In this document: positions 1,358 through 15,518 of the stretch, in pieces
Numbering within the stretch: the first letter of the stretch is position 1
Layout of the letters: every line of letters begins with the position of its first letter
DNA from: a virus
IMG/VR virus record: IMGVR_UViG_3300034060_000174
Location: 1-20,926 of that record
Length of the DNA stretch: 20,926 nt
Strand: one strand, 5' to 3'
Notes under the pieces: generated by a model
The model's input: only the letters and a program-made list of their open reading frames with translations
What the model was told of the DNA's origin: nothing
Database searches by the model: none
Made by a program: the position numbers and the translations under genes

Positions 1358-1447
1358 AAGTGTTAGGTCTCAAACATTGTAACACTTAAGATATTCGCCC
1401 TATCGATTTGTAAACTTGAGACCTTTACACTTCGATGGGGCTTTTTT
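1358..1447 (+). ncRNA. Structured RNA: two hairpins with complementary loops (kissing or switch RNA)
   Basis: Hairpin 1 pairs AAGTGTTA (1358-1365) with TAACACTT (1380-1387), 8 perfect pairs, with a 14-nt loop (1366-1379). Hairpin 2 pairs GCCCTATCGA (1397-1406) with TCGATGGGGC (1432-1441), 10 pairs including one G-U. It continues above a 2x2 internal loop with TGTAAA (1409-1414) pairing TTTACA (1424-1429), leaving a 9-nt loop. The loops contain GGTCTCAA (1366-1373) and TTGAGACC (1416-1423), a perfect 8-base complement, so the hairpins can form a kissing complex. Alternatively 1358-1363 plus 1365-1373 can pair with 1427-1432 plus 1416-1424, breaking hairpin 1 and the upper part of hairpin 2. 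A T tract follows at 1442. With the upstream promoter-like signal it reads as a ~90-nt small RNA or as a leader attenuator. I do not recognise it as any known RNA family. Confidence 0.6.
1397..1447 (+). terminator. Intrinsic terminator formed by hairpin 2 and T tract
   Basis: The GCCCTATCGA / TCGATGGGGC stem (1397-1406 with 1432-1441) is followed directly by TTTTTT (1442-1447) and then ATTT. The lower stem is the most GC-rich segment of the surrounding non-coding DNA. The long apical part, with its own 6-bp stem, is unusual for a plain terminator and overlaps the loop that can pair with hairpin 1. Termination here would end transcripts 16 bases before the next start codon at 1464. Confidence 0.55.
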
Positions 1448-1463
1448 ATTTAAACAAATTATT

Positions 1464-1943
1464 ATGAAAAAAATTATTTTAACAGTAGCAGCAGTTTTAA
1501 CATTAGGTTTAACATTTGCTCAAGAATGTAAGAGTGTAAAAGTAGAAGTAGATTCTTATACTGGTGAAAGAACAATCGAAACTGACTTTGTAGATTTCAA
1601 TGGTGGAACTTATACAGTATCTAAAAGACCATTTGGCATTGCATTATGGTTACAATTAGAAAGTAGTATAATACTATCAATAGATAAAGGGAATATTATA
1701 TACTTTAAATTATCTGACAATTCAGTAATCAAATTTGTAAATAGAAGACTATCCATGGCAGACTATTCAGCATCGACTGGTTATACTAATTCATTTGGAT
1801 TCATATTAGACCAAGAAGTTTTAGATGCTTTAATGAATAAAGAAGTGATTGTAATTAAATGTAGTGTAAATGAATATAATTTAAGTGCAAAAGAAAGTAC
1901 TACATTAAAAAACAATATTAATTGTGTCGTAAATACTAAGTAA
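1464..1943 (+). CDS. Exported protein with signal peptide, unknown function
   Basis: This 159-residue protein has a clear Sec signal peptide: MKK, a hydrophobic core (IILTVAAVLTLGLT) and an FAQ cleavage site near residue 20. The mature part is beta-rich, has two Cys residues (one near each end of the mature chain) that could form a disulfide, and no recognisable catalytic motif. The signal peptide style is that of Flavobacterium periplasmic proteins, which points to the host. The ATG at 1464 is chosen over an upstream in-frame TTG (1416) because that TTG lies inside the RNA hairpin and would put 16 residues before the signal peptide. It is the first gene after the structured RNA. A phage-encoded periplasmic protein at an operon head could act in superinfection exclusion or envelope modification, but this is inference. 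Confidence 0.7.
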   Translation: MKKIILTVAAVLTLGLTFAQECKSVKVEVDSYTGERTIETDFVDFNGGTYTVSKRPFGIALWLQLESSIILSIDKGNIIYFKLSDNSVIKFVNRRLSMADYSASTGYTNSFGFILDQEVLDALMNKEVIVIKCSVNEYNLSAKESTTLKNNINCVVNTK

Positions 1944-2215
1944 TGGTAGAAGAGTGGAAGCATTTAGAAGAACATTATTACATTAGTAACTTTGGAAATG
2001 TTATGAATAGAAATACTAATCGTAACTTAAAGCCGATTAAATGCAATCAATATAAAACAAAAGTAACTTTGACACTAGAGAACAATAGTAGAAAAAAAGA
2101 TGTATTTTTGGCGTCCGAAGTTGCTAGGAAGTTCATTAGTGAATCATTTAAGAAAGTAACTAGATTGGATAAAGACCCATTTAATAATAGAGTAGATAAT
2201 TTAAAAGTAATATGA
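1943..2215 (+). CDS. NUMOD4/HNH-like protein with degenerate nuclease motif
   Basis: The N-terminus (EEWKHL..HYYISNFGNVMNR, residues 3-23) matches the NUMOD4 DNA-binding motif of HNH homing endonucleases. The C-terminus (TRLDKDPFNNRVDNLKVI) matches the second half of an HNH_3-type motif with its NN and DNL signature. The His that normally precedes this segment (as in VDHIDxNxxNN) is replaced by TR, and no other HNH His is evident, so nuclease activity is doubtful. At 90 residues it lacks any AP2 domain. It overlaps the previous stop by one base (TAATG) and the next gene by ATGA. A degenerated homing endonuclease, or one reused as a DNA-binding regulator, both fit. Confidence 0.65.
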   Translation: MVEEWKHLEEHYYISNFGNVMNRNTNRNLKPIKCNQYKTKVTLTLENNSRKKDVFLASEVARKFISESFKKVTRLDKDPFNNRVDNLKVI

Positions 2216-3648
2216 ATGACAGCAATTTAATGCCGTTCTGGTCGGTTAATCAGAATGGTAAGATAGACCTTAATAACTATCTTTTTAAGAAGTTCTTAGA
2301 GAAATACGATTACTTTAAGAATAAACCAAATGCAAATAGTACGTTTAACATCATAAAAAAGAATGGTATATTTTTAGAGATTAAAGACGAAACAGATCTA
2401 AAAGACTTTATACTAACTCACATTGAACAAAATGATTTAGGTATAGGAGTTTATAACTTGATGTCTGGAAACCTTAAATACTTTAAGCGTGACTTTCTTT
2501 CTATGATTTCTACTAAAGAGATTGAAGTAATGAAAGACGATAGAGATAACGCATACTTTTTTTATAATAATTGCATTGTAAATATCACTAAAGACGAACG
2601 TAAAATTATAGATTATAAAGATGTAAATATTTCTATTTGGAAGAAACAAGTAATCAATAGAGATTTTATTGAAGCGGATCACCACCAATCACAATTTAGA
2701 ACTTTTGTTTGGAAAGTAAGCGGAGAAGATGTTGAGAGATATAATACTTTACAATCTGTATTAGGTTACTTACTTCATTCATATAAAACTAATAGTAATA
2801 ATAGAGCTATCATATTTAACGATGAAATGATAAGCGACAATCCAAATGGACGAAGTGGCAAAGGGTTGATTTGGAACGCTTTAAAACAGATTAAAAATGT
2901 TCAATCATTGGATGGTAAAACTTTTACTTTTAACAAGTCATTCCCTTATCAAAACGTTTCTACTGATTGCCAAATATTAGTCTTTGATGACGTTGAGCGT
3001 AACTTTAGTTTTGAATCTTTATTTAGTGTAATTACAGAGGGTATTTGTATAGAGTATAAAGGTAAAGATGCGATTCGATTAAGTGTTGAAGAAAGTCCAA
3101 AGATTATAATAACAACTAATTATACTATTAAAGGTGATGGTGGAAGTCATGAAGCTAGGAAATTTGAAGTTGAAATGTCAACGTTCTTTAATGCAGATTA
3201 TACTCCAGAAATGTTTTTTGGTAATAAACTTTTTAATGATTGGGCCAAACAAGAATGGGCAAGGTTTGATAATTACATGATGGAATGTTTACGTAAATAT
3301 TTAAATAATGGATTAGTTCGCAGCAATACAAAGAATTTAGAGATTAGAAAGCTAATTGATAAAATTAGTAGTGAACTACACACATTTATTCCGTCAATAC
3401 CAAATAACGAATGGGTAAACGTAAAGACTATTTACGATAACTTCTTAAATTCCTATCCTGAGTTAAAGAAATGGTATAAACAAAACAGTTTAACTATTGG
3501 TTTAAAGTCGTATGCTAAACACTACGGAGTTAAATATCATACAACAACAGCTGGGGGTATTACAAAGATTATGTTTGAAGCTACTAAAAGTTATAACAAT
3601 GAAGAGCAAAAGGATATTTGGGATTCAAACGAACTACAAGGATTATGA
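2212..3648 (+). CDS. Replicative helicase/ATPase, D5-like or SF3-like P-loop protein
   Basis: This is a 478-residue P-loop ATPase, probably the phage replicative helicase or the helicase half of a primase-helicase. Walker A is GRSGKG (213-218), Walker B is ILVFDD with acidic residues at 259-260, and a sensor-1-like IITTN ends at residue 303. The later segment (HEARKFEVEMSTFF) resembles the Arg-containing region of SF3/D5-type proteins. The N-terminal 200 residues show no primase motif I recognise. The C-terminal ~120 residues look like a winged-helix-type domain. It overlaps the preceding gene by ATGA and is followed by small genes and DNA-processing enzymes, consistent with a replication operon. 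ATPase identity is secure and the precise helicase family is less so. Confidence 0.8.
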   Translation: MNDSNLMPFWSVNQNGKIDLNNYLFKKFLEKYDYFKNKPNANSTFNIIKKNGIFLEIKDETDLKDFILTHIEQNDLGIGVYNLMSGNLKYFKRDFLSMISTKEIEVMKDDRDNAYFFYNNCIVNITKDERKIIDYKDVNISIWKKQVINRDFIEADHHQSQFRTFVWKVSGEDVERYNTLQSVLGYLLHSYKTNSNNRAIIFNDEMISDNPNGRSGKGLIWNALKQIKNVQSLDGKTFTFNKSFPYQNVSTDCQILVFDDVERNFSFESLFSVITEGICIEYKGKDAIRLSVEESPKIIITTNYTIKGDGGSHEARKFEVEMSTFFNADYTPEMFFGNKLFNDWAKQEWARFDNYMMECLRKYLNNGLVRSNTKNLEIRKLIDKISSELHTFIPSIPNNEWVNVKTIYDNFLNSYPELKKWYKQNSLTIGLKSYAKHYGVKYHTTTAGGITKIMFEATKSYNNEEQKDIWDSNELQGL

Positions 3649-4997: not shown

Positions 4998-6217
4998 AAA
5001 AATTACGTTCGTATCAACTAGACCTATCAAAGAAAGCAGTTGAGATATTAAAAGATAAGAAGATAGTGTACCTTGCTATGGAGGTTCGTTTGGGTAAGAC
5101 TTTAACTGCATTAAATACATGTGAGTTATTTGGTGCTAAATCGGTTCTATTTGTGACTAAAAAGAAAGCAATGAGTTCTATTGAATCGGATTATGCTAGT
5201 ATGCCGTTTTCTTTTGATTTAGTAGTTATTAATACAGAATCAATACATAAGGTTAATGGAACGTTTGATGTTGTTATAAGCGACGAGAATCATAAATATG
5301 GAAGTTTTCCTAAGCCAAGTAAAGGTGCAAAAGAATTTAAACAACGATACTCACATTTACCTTTGATATTCCTAAGTGGTACACCGCATCCAGAGAACTA
5401 CAGCCAAATATATCACCAGTTTTGGATTAGTAGATTCTCACCATTCCATCAATACCCAACATTTTACAAGTGGGCTAGTGTATTCGTAGATATTAAAGTA
5501 AAACATCTAGGATATGGCATGATTAAAGACTATTCAGGAGGTAAAAAAGAATTAATTGAACAAGTAATTAAACCATATATGATAACGTACACACAAAAAG
5601 AAGCTGGATTTAGTTCTACTATCAACGAGAAGATAATATACGTTGACATGAAAGAGTCAACATACGCATTAATTAAGCGATTAGAGAAAGATTTAATCGT
5701 ACAAGGTAAGAAAGAAGTAATACTCGGAGATACATCGGTTAAATTAATGTCTAAACTGCACCAGTTATACTCAGGAACTATAAAATTCGAGTCAGGAAAT
5801 ACTGCTGTTTTAGATTATTCAAAAGCTATCCGTATCTATACAATGTTTAAAGCTAGACAGATTGCAATATTCTACAAGTTTAAAGCTGAATTAGATGCCT
5901 TAGAATTCATATTTGGAGATACATTAACTACCGACCTAGAAGAATTCAACACAACAACTAAGTCAATTGCGTATCAAATCGTATCTGGTCGCGAAGGAGT
6001 CAACCTTAGTCGTGCATCTTCATTGGTTTACTACAATATAGATTTTAGTGCCGTATCATATTGGCAAAGTCGCGACAGGTTAACTACAATGGATAGACTA
6101 GAAAATAACGTATATTGGTTTTTTGCAAAGAATGGAATAGAAGATAAGATATACAAAGCTGTAATGAATAAAAAGAACTACACACTAAACGTATTTAAAA
6201 ATGACTTCGGAAAGTAA
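4994..6217 (+). CDS. SNF2-like superfamily 2 DNA helicase/translocase
   Basis: This is a 407-residue superfamily 2 ATPase resembling the SNF2-type helicases of phage replication modules. Motif I is EVRLGKT (30-36), close to the SNF2 form EMGLGKT. Motif II is DENH (97-100) where DEAH or DEGH is usual. Motif III is LSGTP (127-131), motif V is SGREGVNL (331-338), and motif VI begins QSRDR (358-362). Both RecA-like lobes are therefore present. I use the ATG at 4994, which forms an ATGA overlap with the methyltransferase; an in-frame ATG at 4979 would add five residues. The stop region overlaps the VRR-NUC gene. Such helicases commonly travel with VRR-NUC nucleases in phages and probably work on replication or recombination intermediates. 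Confidence 0.88.
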   Translation: MKKLRSYQLDLSKKAVEILKDKKIVYLAMEVRLGKTLTALNTCELFGAKSVLFVTKKKAMSSIESDYASMPFSFDLVVINTESIHKVNGTFDVVISDENHKYGSFPKPSKGAKEFKQRYSHLPLIFLSGTPHPENYSQIYHQFWISRFSPFHQYPTFYKWASVFVDIKVKHLGYGMIKDYSGGKKELIEQVIKPYMITYTQKEAGFSSTINEKIIYVDMKESTYALIKRLEKDLIVQGKKEVILGDTSVKLMSKLHQLYSGTIKFESGNTAVLDYSKAIRIYTMFKARQIAIFYKFKAELDALEFIFGDTLTTDLEEFNTTTKSIAYQIVSGREGVNLSRASSLVYYNIDFSAVSYWQSRDRLTTMDRLENNVYWFFAKNGIEDKIYKAVMNKKNYTLNVFKNDFGK

Positions 6218-6473: not shown

Positions 6474-6501
6474 TATTATTATAATAAAATAGTTATATTT
6501 G
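6468..6501 (+). promoter_or_regulatory. Bacteroidetes-type promoter-like signal for the second early operon
   Basis: TATATTTG (6494-6501) is a perfect match to the TAnnTTTG consensus of the Bacteroidetes -7 element. A TTG lies at 6468-6470, giving a 23-base gap, which is at the long end of the usual range. It sits in one of the few spacers between genes and ends 29 bases before the start codon at 6531. It would drive the recombination/accessory genes separately from the replication genes. Confidence 0.55.
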
Positions 6502-6530: not shown

Positions 6531-6758
6531 ATGAGTTACCCAAGTCCTTATTTAAAAGCAAAGTTTAAAACTAATTACGCAACAGGAGAATGTGAATTAG
6601 TAAAAGAAAGTATCGAAGCAAAAGCTAAGAAGTATGACGAGCTAGTAGAGACTATAAAGTCATTAGAGTTAATGTATACGAATGCATTAGATAAATACCC
6701 TAGCTTAACTACAATGATACAAGAGAAGTTAAGCGTATTAAAATTAATTAAATTATGA
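6531..6758 (+). CDS. Small hypothetical protein C
   Basis: This 75-residue protein begins MSYPSPYLKAKFKTNY and turns into a helical, coiled-coil-like C-terminal half. It is the first gene after the promoter-like signal at 6494-6501. The DKYPSLTTMIQEKLSVLK segment resembles that of the protein at 3839. It has a clean ATG in a GAATTATG context and overlaps the next gene by ATGA. No function assigned. Confidence 0.6.
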   Translation: MSYPSPYLKAKFKTNYATGECELVKESIEAKAKKYDELVETIKSLELMYTNALDKYPSLTTMIQEKLSVLKLIKL

Positions 6759-13235: not shown

Positions 13236-13674
13236 TTTAACATCAAGACTTTATTCATCTTTAATTAGTGATGCATTAATTAACCAAGTCACTAAGGGAA
13301 GTTTAGATAAGATTACCAATGCTAAAAAAGATATGTATCCATTAGCTCACGTTATGGTGGATAGTGGCGTATTTGAGTCAAACACTATTAAATTTACTGT
13401 ATCGGTACTTATAATGGATTTAATTGATTACACAAAGGATAATCTAGAAGATTTATATTATGGTAATAATAATGAAGATGATGTACACCATCAAAGCATT
13501 TTGATTTGCCAAAGATTATTTGAAGAGTTTAGACGTGGGCAATTTAGTCATGAATACTCGATAGAAGCCGAGACTGCTACATTTGAATTATTTACTGAAA
13601 GATTTACGGATGATGTTGCTGGGTGTACAGTTACTTTTGATATTACAATGGCAAATACAATGGATATATGTTAA
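13219..13674 (+). CDS. Putative tail or head-tail connector protein
   Basis: This 151-residue protein belongs to a family I recognise by pattern from Bacteroidetes phage structural modules: an N-terminal YYDLTSRLYSSL segment, PLAHVMV near 41-47, MDLIDYT near 66-72, and a C-terminal TFDITMANTMDIC. Its location directly after the chaperone genes and before an HK97-gp10-like protein suggests a tail terminator or connector. It starts inside the end of the frameshift product and overlaps the next gene by seven bases. The exact role is not established. Confidence 0.6.
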   Translation: MKGYYDLTSRLYSSLISDALINQVTKGSLDKITNAKKDMYPLAHVMVDSGVFESNTIKFTVSVLIMDLIDYTKDNLEDLYYGNNNEDDVHHQSILICQRLFEEFRRGQFSHEYSIEAETATFELFTERFTDDVAGCTVTFDITMANTMDIC

Positions 13675-14195
13675 ACGTACAGGAAGAGTTAGATAAGTTT
13701 AAGAACTATGTAATACAGCAATCTAGGTCGAACTTAACTAAGCAAGGTAGGAACGTATCTAAATCACTGTACAACTCTATTAAAGGTGAAGCAAAAGCAA
13801 TGCCTAATTCATTCTATCTTAACTTTGAAATGGATGAACATGGGCAGTATTTAGATAAGGGTGTACGTGGTAAGAATTCAAGTGCAAAAGCTCCTGACTC
13901 ACCATTTAAGTTTGGAAGTGGTAAAGGTAAGAAAGGTGGATTGACTCATGGAATACAACGATGGGTTAAGGCTAGGAGGTTTCAGTTTAGAGATAAGAAG
14001 AGTGGTAAGTTTATGTCATACGAATCTACAGCATTCTTAATTACTAGGTCTATATATTCTAAGGGAACTAAACCGTCACTATTCTTTACAAAACCATTCC
14101 AAAAATACTTCGAGAAATTGCCACAAGAGTTAATCGTTAAATACGGATTGGACGTTGAGGAGTTATTTAAGTATACAATTCAACAACCTAAATAA
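13668..14195 (+). CDS. HK97-gp10-like tail completion / head-tail joining protein
   Basis: This 175-residue basic protein has the features of gp10-like neck or tail-completion proteins: an N-terminal helix, a conserved YLDKGVRGK turn near 61-69 and a C-terminal TKPSLFFTKPFQKYFEKLP segment. Members help finish the tail or join it to the head. The central stretch is unusually rich in Lys and Gly (FGSGKGKKGG). The gene ends one base before the next start codon, giving TAA followed directly by ATG, so translation is likely coupled. Confidence 0.65.
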   Translation: MLNVQEELDKFKNYVIQQSRSNLTKQGRNVSKSLYNSIKGEAKAMPNSFYLNFEMDEHGQYLDKGVRGKNSSAKAPDSPFKFGSGKGKKGGLTHGIQRWVKARRFQFRDKKSGKFMSYESTAFLITRSIYSKGTKPSLFFTKPFQKYFEKLPQELIVKYGLDVEELFKYTIQQPK

Positions 14196-15518
14196 ATGGC
14201 AAACATATTTGTAAGAAGTCCTTATATTGTAGCGATAAATGTAGCAGGACAGATTGGGACAAAGATAGAGATATTTCTTTGGAATGGCACAGGTTCAGCT
14301 CCTACTACACCACAATACACACTATCTAAATTAATTCCGTCAGACACTAACACATTAACTGAATACGACATTTCTCCTTATGTTAGAGAATACTTGTCTC
14401 ATTCTGCACCACAAGATACAGAAGCAGGTACATTTACAAGTCTTGCACCAACTCAATGGTGTAATGTTAAAGTTGTTAAATATAAATTAGTAGGTACAAC
14501 ATATAGTTTAATAAGTGCTTTTACAATAGTACATACTTTTGAAGCATATGCATTCGATGGATATTCATTCTACGAGTCAGGAAGTAATTATGACTATGGT
14601 AGATTCTTACTAGAGCAAAAAGAGTATTCCTATAATGAAGATGCTTTGTCTGCTGGTGAGGTTGCTGCTTACTTAAACACTAACGAGTTTGTTAGATACG
14701 TAGACGAAAGCACAACGACAACTATTACAGGTGTTACGTTAAATGTAAACGTATCTTTTGAAGTAACGACATTAACTAAAACAGGAAGATATATATTGCT
14801 ACCTGGTGAATACTTATCTTTTACATATACAAATGCTTTAGGAAATCCTGATGTTTGGGTGGGTACTGTTTTGACTTGTACTTACAATTCAGGTACGAAT
14901 ACAACAACAATAACACCTGACTTTGGCGCAAATATTGCAGAAACAGATGGTGTTTCTCCAACGACAAATAAAGTAGTTACAACATTAGACTCAGCTTACT
15001 ATACTGTACCATCTAGTAAATGGCATGCTGTTTCAAGAATTTCAGGCACTAAAAACACTTTGCAGATACTATCTAGTTCTTATACTAAGCTAGCTGAGTG
15101 GACATTTACACCTGTTTGCGAGCCTAAGTACACGCCAGTAACGATTGACTTTATTAATAAGTATGGTGCGTGGCAAAAAGAGTTCTTTTTTAAAGCATCT
15201 AAGAACACATTATCTATTGAATCGAGTGATTATAATGTGATGCAAAGTTCAGCTAGTAGTTACGATATATTACAAGGACAAAAAAGGACGTTTAATGCTA
15301 ATGCTAGAGAGACAATATCTGTAAATAGTGGCTATGTTAATGAAGATTTTAGCTCTAACATTAAACAACTTCTAATGAGTGAACGCGTATTGGTTGATAA
15401 TAAGCCTGCAATATGTAAAACAAAGTCATTAGAGTTGATGAAAAACATAAATAATCACATGATTAATTACAGTTTAGAGTTTGAGTTTGCGTATAACACA
15501 ATTAACAACGTGATATAA
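14196..15518 (+). CDS. Virion structural protein, tail/baseplate
   Basis: This 440-residue protein is rich in Thr, Ser and Tyr and almost entirely beta in character. The N-terminus (MANIFVRSPYIVAI), the TEYDISPYVREYL segment (about 55-67) and the mid-protein TIDFINKYGAWQ... region are shared features of a large-protein family that I know from Bacteroidetes siphophage tail modules. No enzymatic motif is visible. It lies between the tail completion gene and an 804-residue structural gene, whose ATG overlaps its stop by one base. A distal-tail or tail-tube-associated role is likely but not shown. Confidence 0.65.
   Translation: MANIFVRSPYIVAINVAGQIGTKIEIFLWNGTGSAPTTPQYTLSKLIPSDTNTLTEYDISPYVREYLSHSAPQDTEAGTFTSLAPTQWCNVKVVKYKLVGTTYSLISAFTIVHTFEAYAFDGYSFYESGSNYDYGRFLLEQKEYSYNEDALSAGEVAAYLNTNEFVRYVDESTTTTITGVTLNVNVSFEVTTLTKTGRYILLPGEYLSFTYTNALGNPDVWVGTVLTCTYNSGTNTTTITPDFGANIAETDGVSPTTNKVVTTLDSAYYTVPSSKWHAVSRISGTKNTLQILSSSYTKLAEWTFTPVCEPKYTPVTIDFINKYGAWQKEFFFKASKNTLSIESSDYNVMQSSASSYDILQGQKRTFNANARETISVNSGYVNEDFSSNIKQLLMSERVLVDNKPAICKTKSLELMKNINNHMINYSLEFEFAYNTINNVI

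Follow-up and report, generated by a model that had tools for sequence, protein, structure and literature searches.

Kissing-terminator leaders of Bacteroidota phages: a conserved two-hairpin RNA family predicted to act in cis as an attenuator of early operons

In plasmid replication attenuators of the pT181 and pIP501 type, a promoter-proximal terminator lies before the replication gene, and control depends on antisense RNA encoded by the opposite strand. The lambda nut and HK022 put elements are leader RNAs of early operons that act on distant terminators and are not known to involve kissing with a terminator loop. The phi29 packaging RNA carries two mutually complementary loops that vary between phages, the pairing being intermolecular and linked to packaging, and the C4 and P4 CI antisense immunity RNAs are short phage RNAs with regulatory loops (c4 is Rfam family RF01695). 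To our knowledge, very little is known about gene regulation in Bacteroidota phages. By analogy of architecture, the closest known device to the element described here is the guanidine-IV riboswitch, a 5' leader of two hairpins in which the second is a terminator, a start codon follows soon after, and the loop-loop contact has been proposed to give read-through by competing with terminator-stem closure (PMC7736828, PMC11611296).

Our analysis concerns a window of 20,926 nucleotides, the whole of the stretch taken from viral record IMGVR_UViG_3300034060_000174. At positions 1358-1447 of its plus strand, to which the promoter, the leader and the genes after it all belong, the loop of a hairpin close to the promoter and that of an intrinsic terminator are joined by an 8-bp loop-loop (kissing) pairing. 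An initial annotation had drawn two hairpins, their loops and a T tract here, and each is present in the sequence exactly where it had been placed. Hairpin 1 is formed by arms at 1358-1365 and 1380-1387 (fold and alignments), with 1360-1365 probably being the transcribed portion of the 5' arm. Its loop holds the kissing strand K1 (GGTCTCAA, 1366-1373), which is complementary to 1416-1423, starts at about transcript nucleotide +7 and covaries in relatives. A single-stranded linker (AAGATATTC, 1388-1396), containing the conserved motif AAGANNTT, leads to hairpin 2, the terminator, whose outer arms (1397-1406 and 1432-1441; fold and alignments) and inner arms (1409-1414 and 1424-1429; fold and alignment) are separated by a symmetric internal loop with TT at 1407-1408 opposite CT at 1430-1431. 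The second kissing strand, K2 (TTGAGACC, 1416-1423), which is complementary to K1 and covaries, lies in the terminator loop, and the T tract of the intrinsic terminator occupies 1442-1447. The region 1340-1460 has a minimum free energy of -29.9 kcal/mol (z = -3.8), and none of 200 shuffled sequences folded equally well; in the whole window there are only two sites for GGTCTCAA, namely the two loops. The kissing-loop fold that had been proposed is thus borne out by the 8-bp pairing, by covariation in relatives and by the stability of the fold. The annotation had also recognised no known RNA family, in agreement with a search of Rfam 15 in which no family matched at its gathering score and relaxed thresholds brought up no guanidine family; relaxed matches to NsiR1, TEG147 and mir families fell far under their cut-offs and were rejected. 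In the literature searched, a kissing-terminator leader of this kind is not described, and a paper on Lillamyvirus phages does not mention a terminator, promoter or ncRNA.

A promoter-like signal starting transcription at the structure had been suggested, and the window indeed carries a promoter of the Bacteroidota type rather than a sigma-70-like one. Its -33 element TTG (1326-1328) lies 19 nt upstream of a -7 box (TAATTTAG, 1348-1355) that agrees with Bacteroidota TAnnTTTG at all but one position. Given the spacing reported for transcription starts in Flavobacterium johnsoniae, where the G of the -7 box stands at -5 (PMC6847099), transcription is predicted to start at about 1360, so that hairpin 1 of the transcript would consist of 1360-1365 paired with 1380-1385. 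A TAnnTTTG-like box is present in nearly all relatives, and in 9 of 37 copies TTG occurs at a spacing of 19 before it, a peak that coincides with the spacing in the window. Half of the copies have K1 beginning at transcript nucleotide +7, and in most it begins between +5 and +10. A consensus TATATTTG promoter box is also found at 6494-6501 of the window, in the gap ahead of a gene at 6531 and without a kissing leader.

Relatives were collected with the replication protein encoded at 2212-3648 as bait, which yielded 57 and then further viral loci as well as 35 loci from cellular genomes. The first diverged copies came from blastn without any requirement on the loops, and their loops were different from those of the window yet matched each other (GGTCGGAA/TTCCGACC, CCTGAGAA/TTCTCAGG, GATCCTAC/GTAGGATC and CGTGGAAA/TTTCCACG). 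A descriptor search for a hairpin, a terminator and complementary loops in 1.84 Mb of related loci returned 42 matches scoring at least 60, every one oriented like the Rep gene, and two shuffles of the whole set scored no higher than 57; with a non-physical 'parallel' loop pairing as null, one score reached at least 65, versus 43 with antiparallel pairing. Because the descriptor itself requires complementarity, we built a covariance model (R1) from four rows that describes the hairpins only and holds no kissing information. R1 recovered about 11 further distinct copies, every one with complementary loops of 6-9 bp, the sole R1 match lacking them being a weak one on the minus strand (L108). About 13 more came from models R2 and R3, with two exceptions to the loop complementarity: L091:5934, in which K1 is lost, and the marginal L094:2868. 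Altogether, models without kissing information contributed about 25 further copies, nearly all of which have complementary loops. R3, built without the window group, matched the window element in register (1348-1448, 31.8 bits, E=3e-4, this and other E-values being rough since they come from short calibrations), and R2, trained mainly on a short-loop subclass, missed the window copy.

The family totals 66 unique copies, with 1-4 per phage, in Bacteroidota phages. Cultured carriers are the Flavobacterium phages hemulen6-1 (copies at 13739 and 14773), lillamy9-1 (14110) and 11b (33634); among more distant phages, no convincing copy was found in Polaribacter Leef_1, MW202828, Nonlabens P12024L, the first 50 kb of Cellulophaga phi19:3 or F. 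columnare FCL-2. A scan of host genomes with strict filters and no positive control gave one match in 299 Flavobacteriaceae genomes (L214, a 1.9-kb stretch) and none in 296 Bacteroidota genomes, which is weak evidence that the element is restricted to phages.

Two subclasses can be distinguished. The first, to which the window belongs, has a hairpin-1 loop of 14 nt whose 5' side holds K1; in the second, hairpin 1 has 4 bp and its loop 8 nt. The linker motif AAGANNTT lies 0-4 nt past hairpin 1 in most copies. Across the family the terminator stem is interrupted by a symmetric internal loop, possibly a bend or a protein site, and many copies have one of tandem G.A type. Internal loops of the form UGAA/GGAU, UGAU/UGAU and CGAU/UGAA, in which the tandem G.A is flanked by U.U, occur in L018, L020, L021, L039, L046, L096, L101 and others, and in L051 the two sides of the internal loop are swapped. 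A few copies keep the K1:K2 complementarity though hairpin 1 is hardly visible, which marks the loop pairing as the core of the element.

This pairing is supported by covariation. Compensatory changes in related phages, which the annotation had named as a check, were examined with covariance models and are present: the loops differ and their complementarity is kept. Among 39 copies there are 34 distinct K1 sequences, with three to five pair types at each of seven kissing positions. In a hairpin-fitted alignment of 27 sequences, pairing is seen in 96.9% of kissing cells, and both sides have changed in 6 of 7 pairs; the covariation of the kissing helix exceeds that of all 500 shuffles and of all slid versions, although the aligned sequences share kinship and the shuffle counts are not to be read as probabilities. 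In the second subclass (7 sequences), the kissing helix is 100% paired and 6 of 8 pairs covary. Judged by these sequence comparisons, the two hairpins with complementary, covarying loops, the second hairpin being a terminator, clearly form a conserved RNA family. Since the loop contact is a feature kept by selection, its influence on termination is very probable.

Comparison of the copies also bears on two other ways of using the complementary loops. The annotation had offered, as a second model, a terminator/antiterminator switch working through one long alternative stem. The window sequence permits such a stem, but across the family the pairing extends past the loops by a mean of 1.9, at chance level compared with 2.1 for mixed pairs, and we regard this switch as vanishingly unlikely. 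The loops could also pair between molecules, in a multimer resembling packaging RNA or through a terminated RNA that binds nascent leaders as a copy-number sensor, and loops that are complementary without being palindromic could indeed pair in trans. However, several copies with different loops occur within one phage, tethering favours pairing in cis, and there is no link to terminase genes, so that an intermolecular role appears very improbable. The dimerisation that had been suggested is likewise unsupported, because the differing loops among the copies of one phage imply that each copy pairs with itself; each copy in multi-copy phages has its own loop pair. Matches to the loops elsewhere in the phages number 33 against 36 expected, and without an excess of such matches the loop pairing is best placed in cis.

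The position ahead of a replication operon, as first described, also holds. The leader at 1358-1447 is followed by a gene for a 159-aa exported-type protein (1464-1943, without a match in Pfam or PHROG), whose counterparts also follow copies L006 and L100:5175, by a NUMOD4-motif protein (1943-2215; PF07463, slightly under cut-off) and by the replication protein (2212-3648; phrog_28855), the C-terminal part of which is of VirE/primase-helicase type. The exported-type protein, beginning MKKIILTVAAVLTLGLTFAQEC (window 1464-1943; L006:3174; L100:5274), is found after leaders with three different loop pairs. More generally, the genes after the leaders include those for the BT4734/PriCT primase-helicase, NUMOD4-HNH endonucleases, an N6/N4 methylase, a DEAD/ResIII helicase and the exported-type protein, and have mostly early functions. 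In hemulen6-1, the copy at 13739 directly precedes the annotated NUMOD4 endonuclease gp037, and that at 14773 precedes gp040 and the primase gp042. NUMOD4-HNH genes stand directly after the leader in L013, L028, L044, L096:14528, L100, L101:10758, L104, L117:4765, L167:880 and L207:13739, a recurrent pairing that looks as if the two had moved as one cassette, and the endonuclease cassette of hemulen6-1 is identical in 34 Flavobacterium phage records. A guide RNA of these endonucleases was considered and rejected, as the leader also precedes primase-helicase, methylase, helicase and exported-protein genes.

Upstream of the copies there is often a gap of 300-430 nt. In the window it comprises about 420 nt of AT-rich non-coding DNA (936-1358), which contains a repeated AAAGTTTTAAC and inverted repeats that are long but imperfect (965-1016/1175-1226 and 1187-1202/1298-1313). 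These gaps, in the window and in many relatives, may be replication origins. One of the related loci, L096 (IMGVR_UViG_3300023181_000008), carries at 13571-13985 a tRNA-Asp overlapped by what is predicted to be a permuted tmRNA (Rfam RF04321, E=5e-7; ARAGORN tag DNVINLFGNEAKIAA).

The leader is closely coupled to a start codon. An ORF starts at most 30 nt past the terminator in 62 of the 66 copies, compared with 18% of 78 control terminators, that is, other terminator-like hairpins of the same phages. The window has both a promoter directly before hairpin 1 and an ATG, at 1464, within 30 nt of the terminator. This coupling separates the two roles that had been suggested for the element: a leader or attenuator is favoured, and a free small RNA of about 90 nt is not. 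In the latter reading, the terminated RNA of about 85-90 nt would itself be the product, a stable, kissing-protected phage sRNA acting in trans on targets in the host or the phage, with the downstream genes expressed through leaky termination. A promoter and a terminator of its own, the promoter starting at the first base of hairpin 1, would suit such an RNA, as would the compact fold and the conserved single-stranded AAGANNTT linker; set against it are the nearby start codons, the number of loop targets in the phage, which is not above expectation, and the fact that no loop sequence is common to the copies of one phage. We therefore consider a trans-acting sRNA unlikely, though not negligible.

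We instead favour, as a prediction held with some confidence, a cis-acting 5' leader or attenuator of early operons. Host RNA polymerase would start at about 1360, and the first 26 or so nucleotides would form hairpin 1 or at least leave K1 exposed; the short A/T-rich linker would come next, and then the terminator with its K2 loop. As it emerges from the polymerase, K2 could bind K1 while the lower terminator stem is still open, a placement from which K1:K2 pairing could influence whether transcription stops at 1442-1447, giving an RNA of about 85-90 nt, or continues through the gene at 1464 and on into the replication operon. The trigger might be the speed of the polymerase, a protein of host or phage origin, or a ligand that acts on either the AAGANNTT linker or the internal loop. 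Promoter, leader of about 85 nt, terminator and start codon leave no room for a second promoter, so that downstream expression needs read-through and the element should behave as an attenuator. Alongside the observed structure, covariation, promoter unit and close start-codon coupling, we infer that kissing controls termination, and the guanidine-IV precedent suggests that it favours read-through; the terminated RNA should still be made. Counting against the attenuator reading, apart from the linker geometry considered below, are the mismatch in the -7 box of the window and copy L091:5934, which still precedes a replication gene without K1. In this copy (5934-6021) the terminator and its loop are intact and the gene that follows is of primase-helicase type, which makes it a natural test case for the role of kissing. 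A further candidate, a linker pre-emptor pairing with the 5' arm of the terminator, was slightly better than with shuffled linkers (-1.7 versus -0.9 kcal/mol) and was rejected as too weak.

Energetics and geometry are relevant to whether the contact switches anything. The kissing energy is about -10 kcal/mol, with hairpin 1 alone being weaker (mean -2.6). By a crude estimate, the linker of the window is too short for a straight kissing stack together with the full terminator stem (63 versus 95 Angstrom), which would be compatible with guanidine-IV-like competition, yet the length geometry would allow kissing and the full terminator to coexist in 29 of 39 copies, so that neither competition nor coexistence is general. 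Both the strength of the kissing and this frequent coexistence would fit a contact that only stabilises or protects, yielding a strong terminator near the promoter or a 5' end that resists RNase and giving constant low expression with no switch. A plain terminator, however, could give a constant level with no need to conserve a second hairpin, the linker motif or the placement of K1 at +7, and we find a purely stabilising role quite doubtful.

As an attenuator, the element probably decides whether the genes of early operons are read. The family is common to otherwise different phages, cultured Flavobacterium phages included, and stands before replication and DNA-modification genes. It would show that kissing with a terminator loop has been put to use a second time, independently, and its variable loop pairs offer a natural series for studying the effect of kissing on intrinsic termination.

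Compared with the systems introduced above, the phage leaders resemble plasmid attenuators in having a terminator before a replication gene but differ in the absence of an antisense -7 box: none occurs in the 100 nt behind each of 39 copies, and an antisense-controlled attenuator was rejected on this basis. With nut and put they share the nature of a phage early-operon leader RNA beside its promoter that could govern termination, the difference being that the leaders described here kiss the terminator loop. The phi29 packaging RNA is alike in its variable complementary loops but has no terminator-leader layout, and the several different loop pairs per phage argue against an RNA of this type. 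Unlike the C4 and P4 CI RNAs, the leaders have no Rfam match and no complementary targets elsewhere in the phage. With guanidine-IV they have in common a two-hairpin 5' leader, kissing between the upstream hairpin and the terminator hairpin, and a nearby start codon. Guanidine-IV, however, has highly conserved nucleotides and precedes guanidine/MepA exporter genes, whereas the phage leaders show almost free variation in both loops, have their conserved letters in the linker, and are followed by primase-helicase, HNH, methylase and helicase genes; hairpin 1 of the phage leader, moreover, lies at the first base of the transcript, which sets it apart from guanidine-IV as published. We class the kissing-terminator leaders of Bacteroidota phages as a new family, a variant of terminator-coupled leader RNAs. 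More tentatively, they might represent a phage-borne switch class in which the first loop of the transcript docks into the terminator loop and so determines whether transcription of several early operons is terminated; these would make up a leader regulon that responds to a host or phage signal through the AAGANNTT linker, with guanidine-IV-like mechanics and no conserved aptamer letters.
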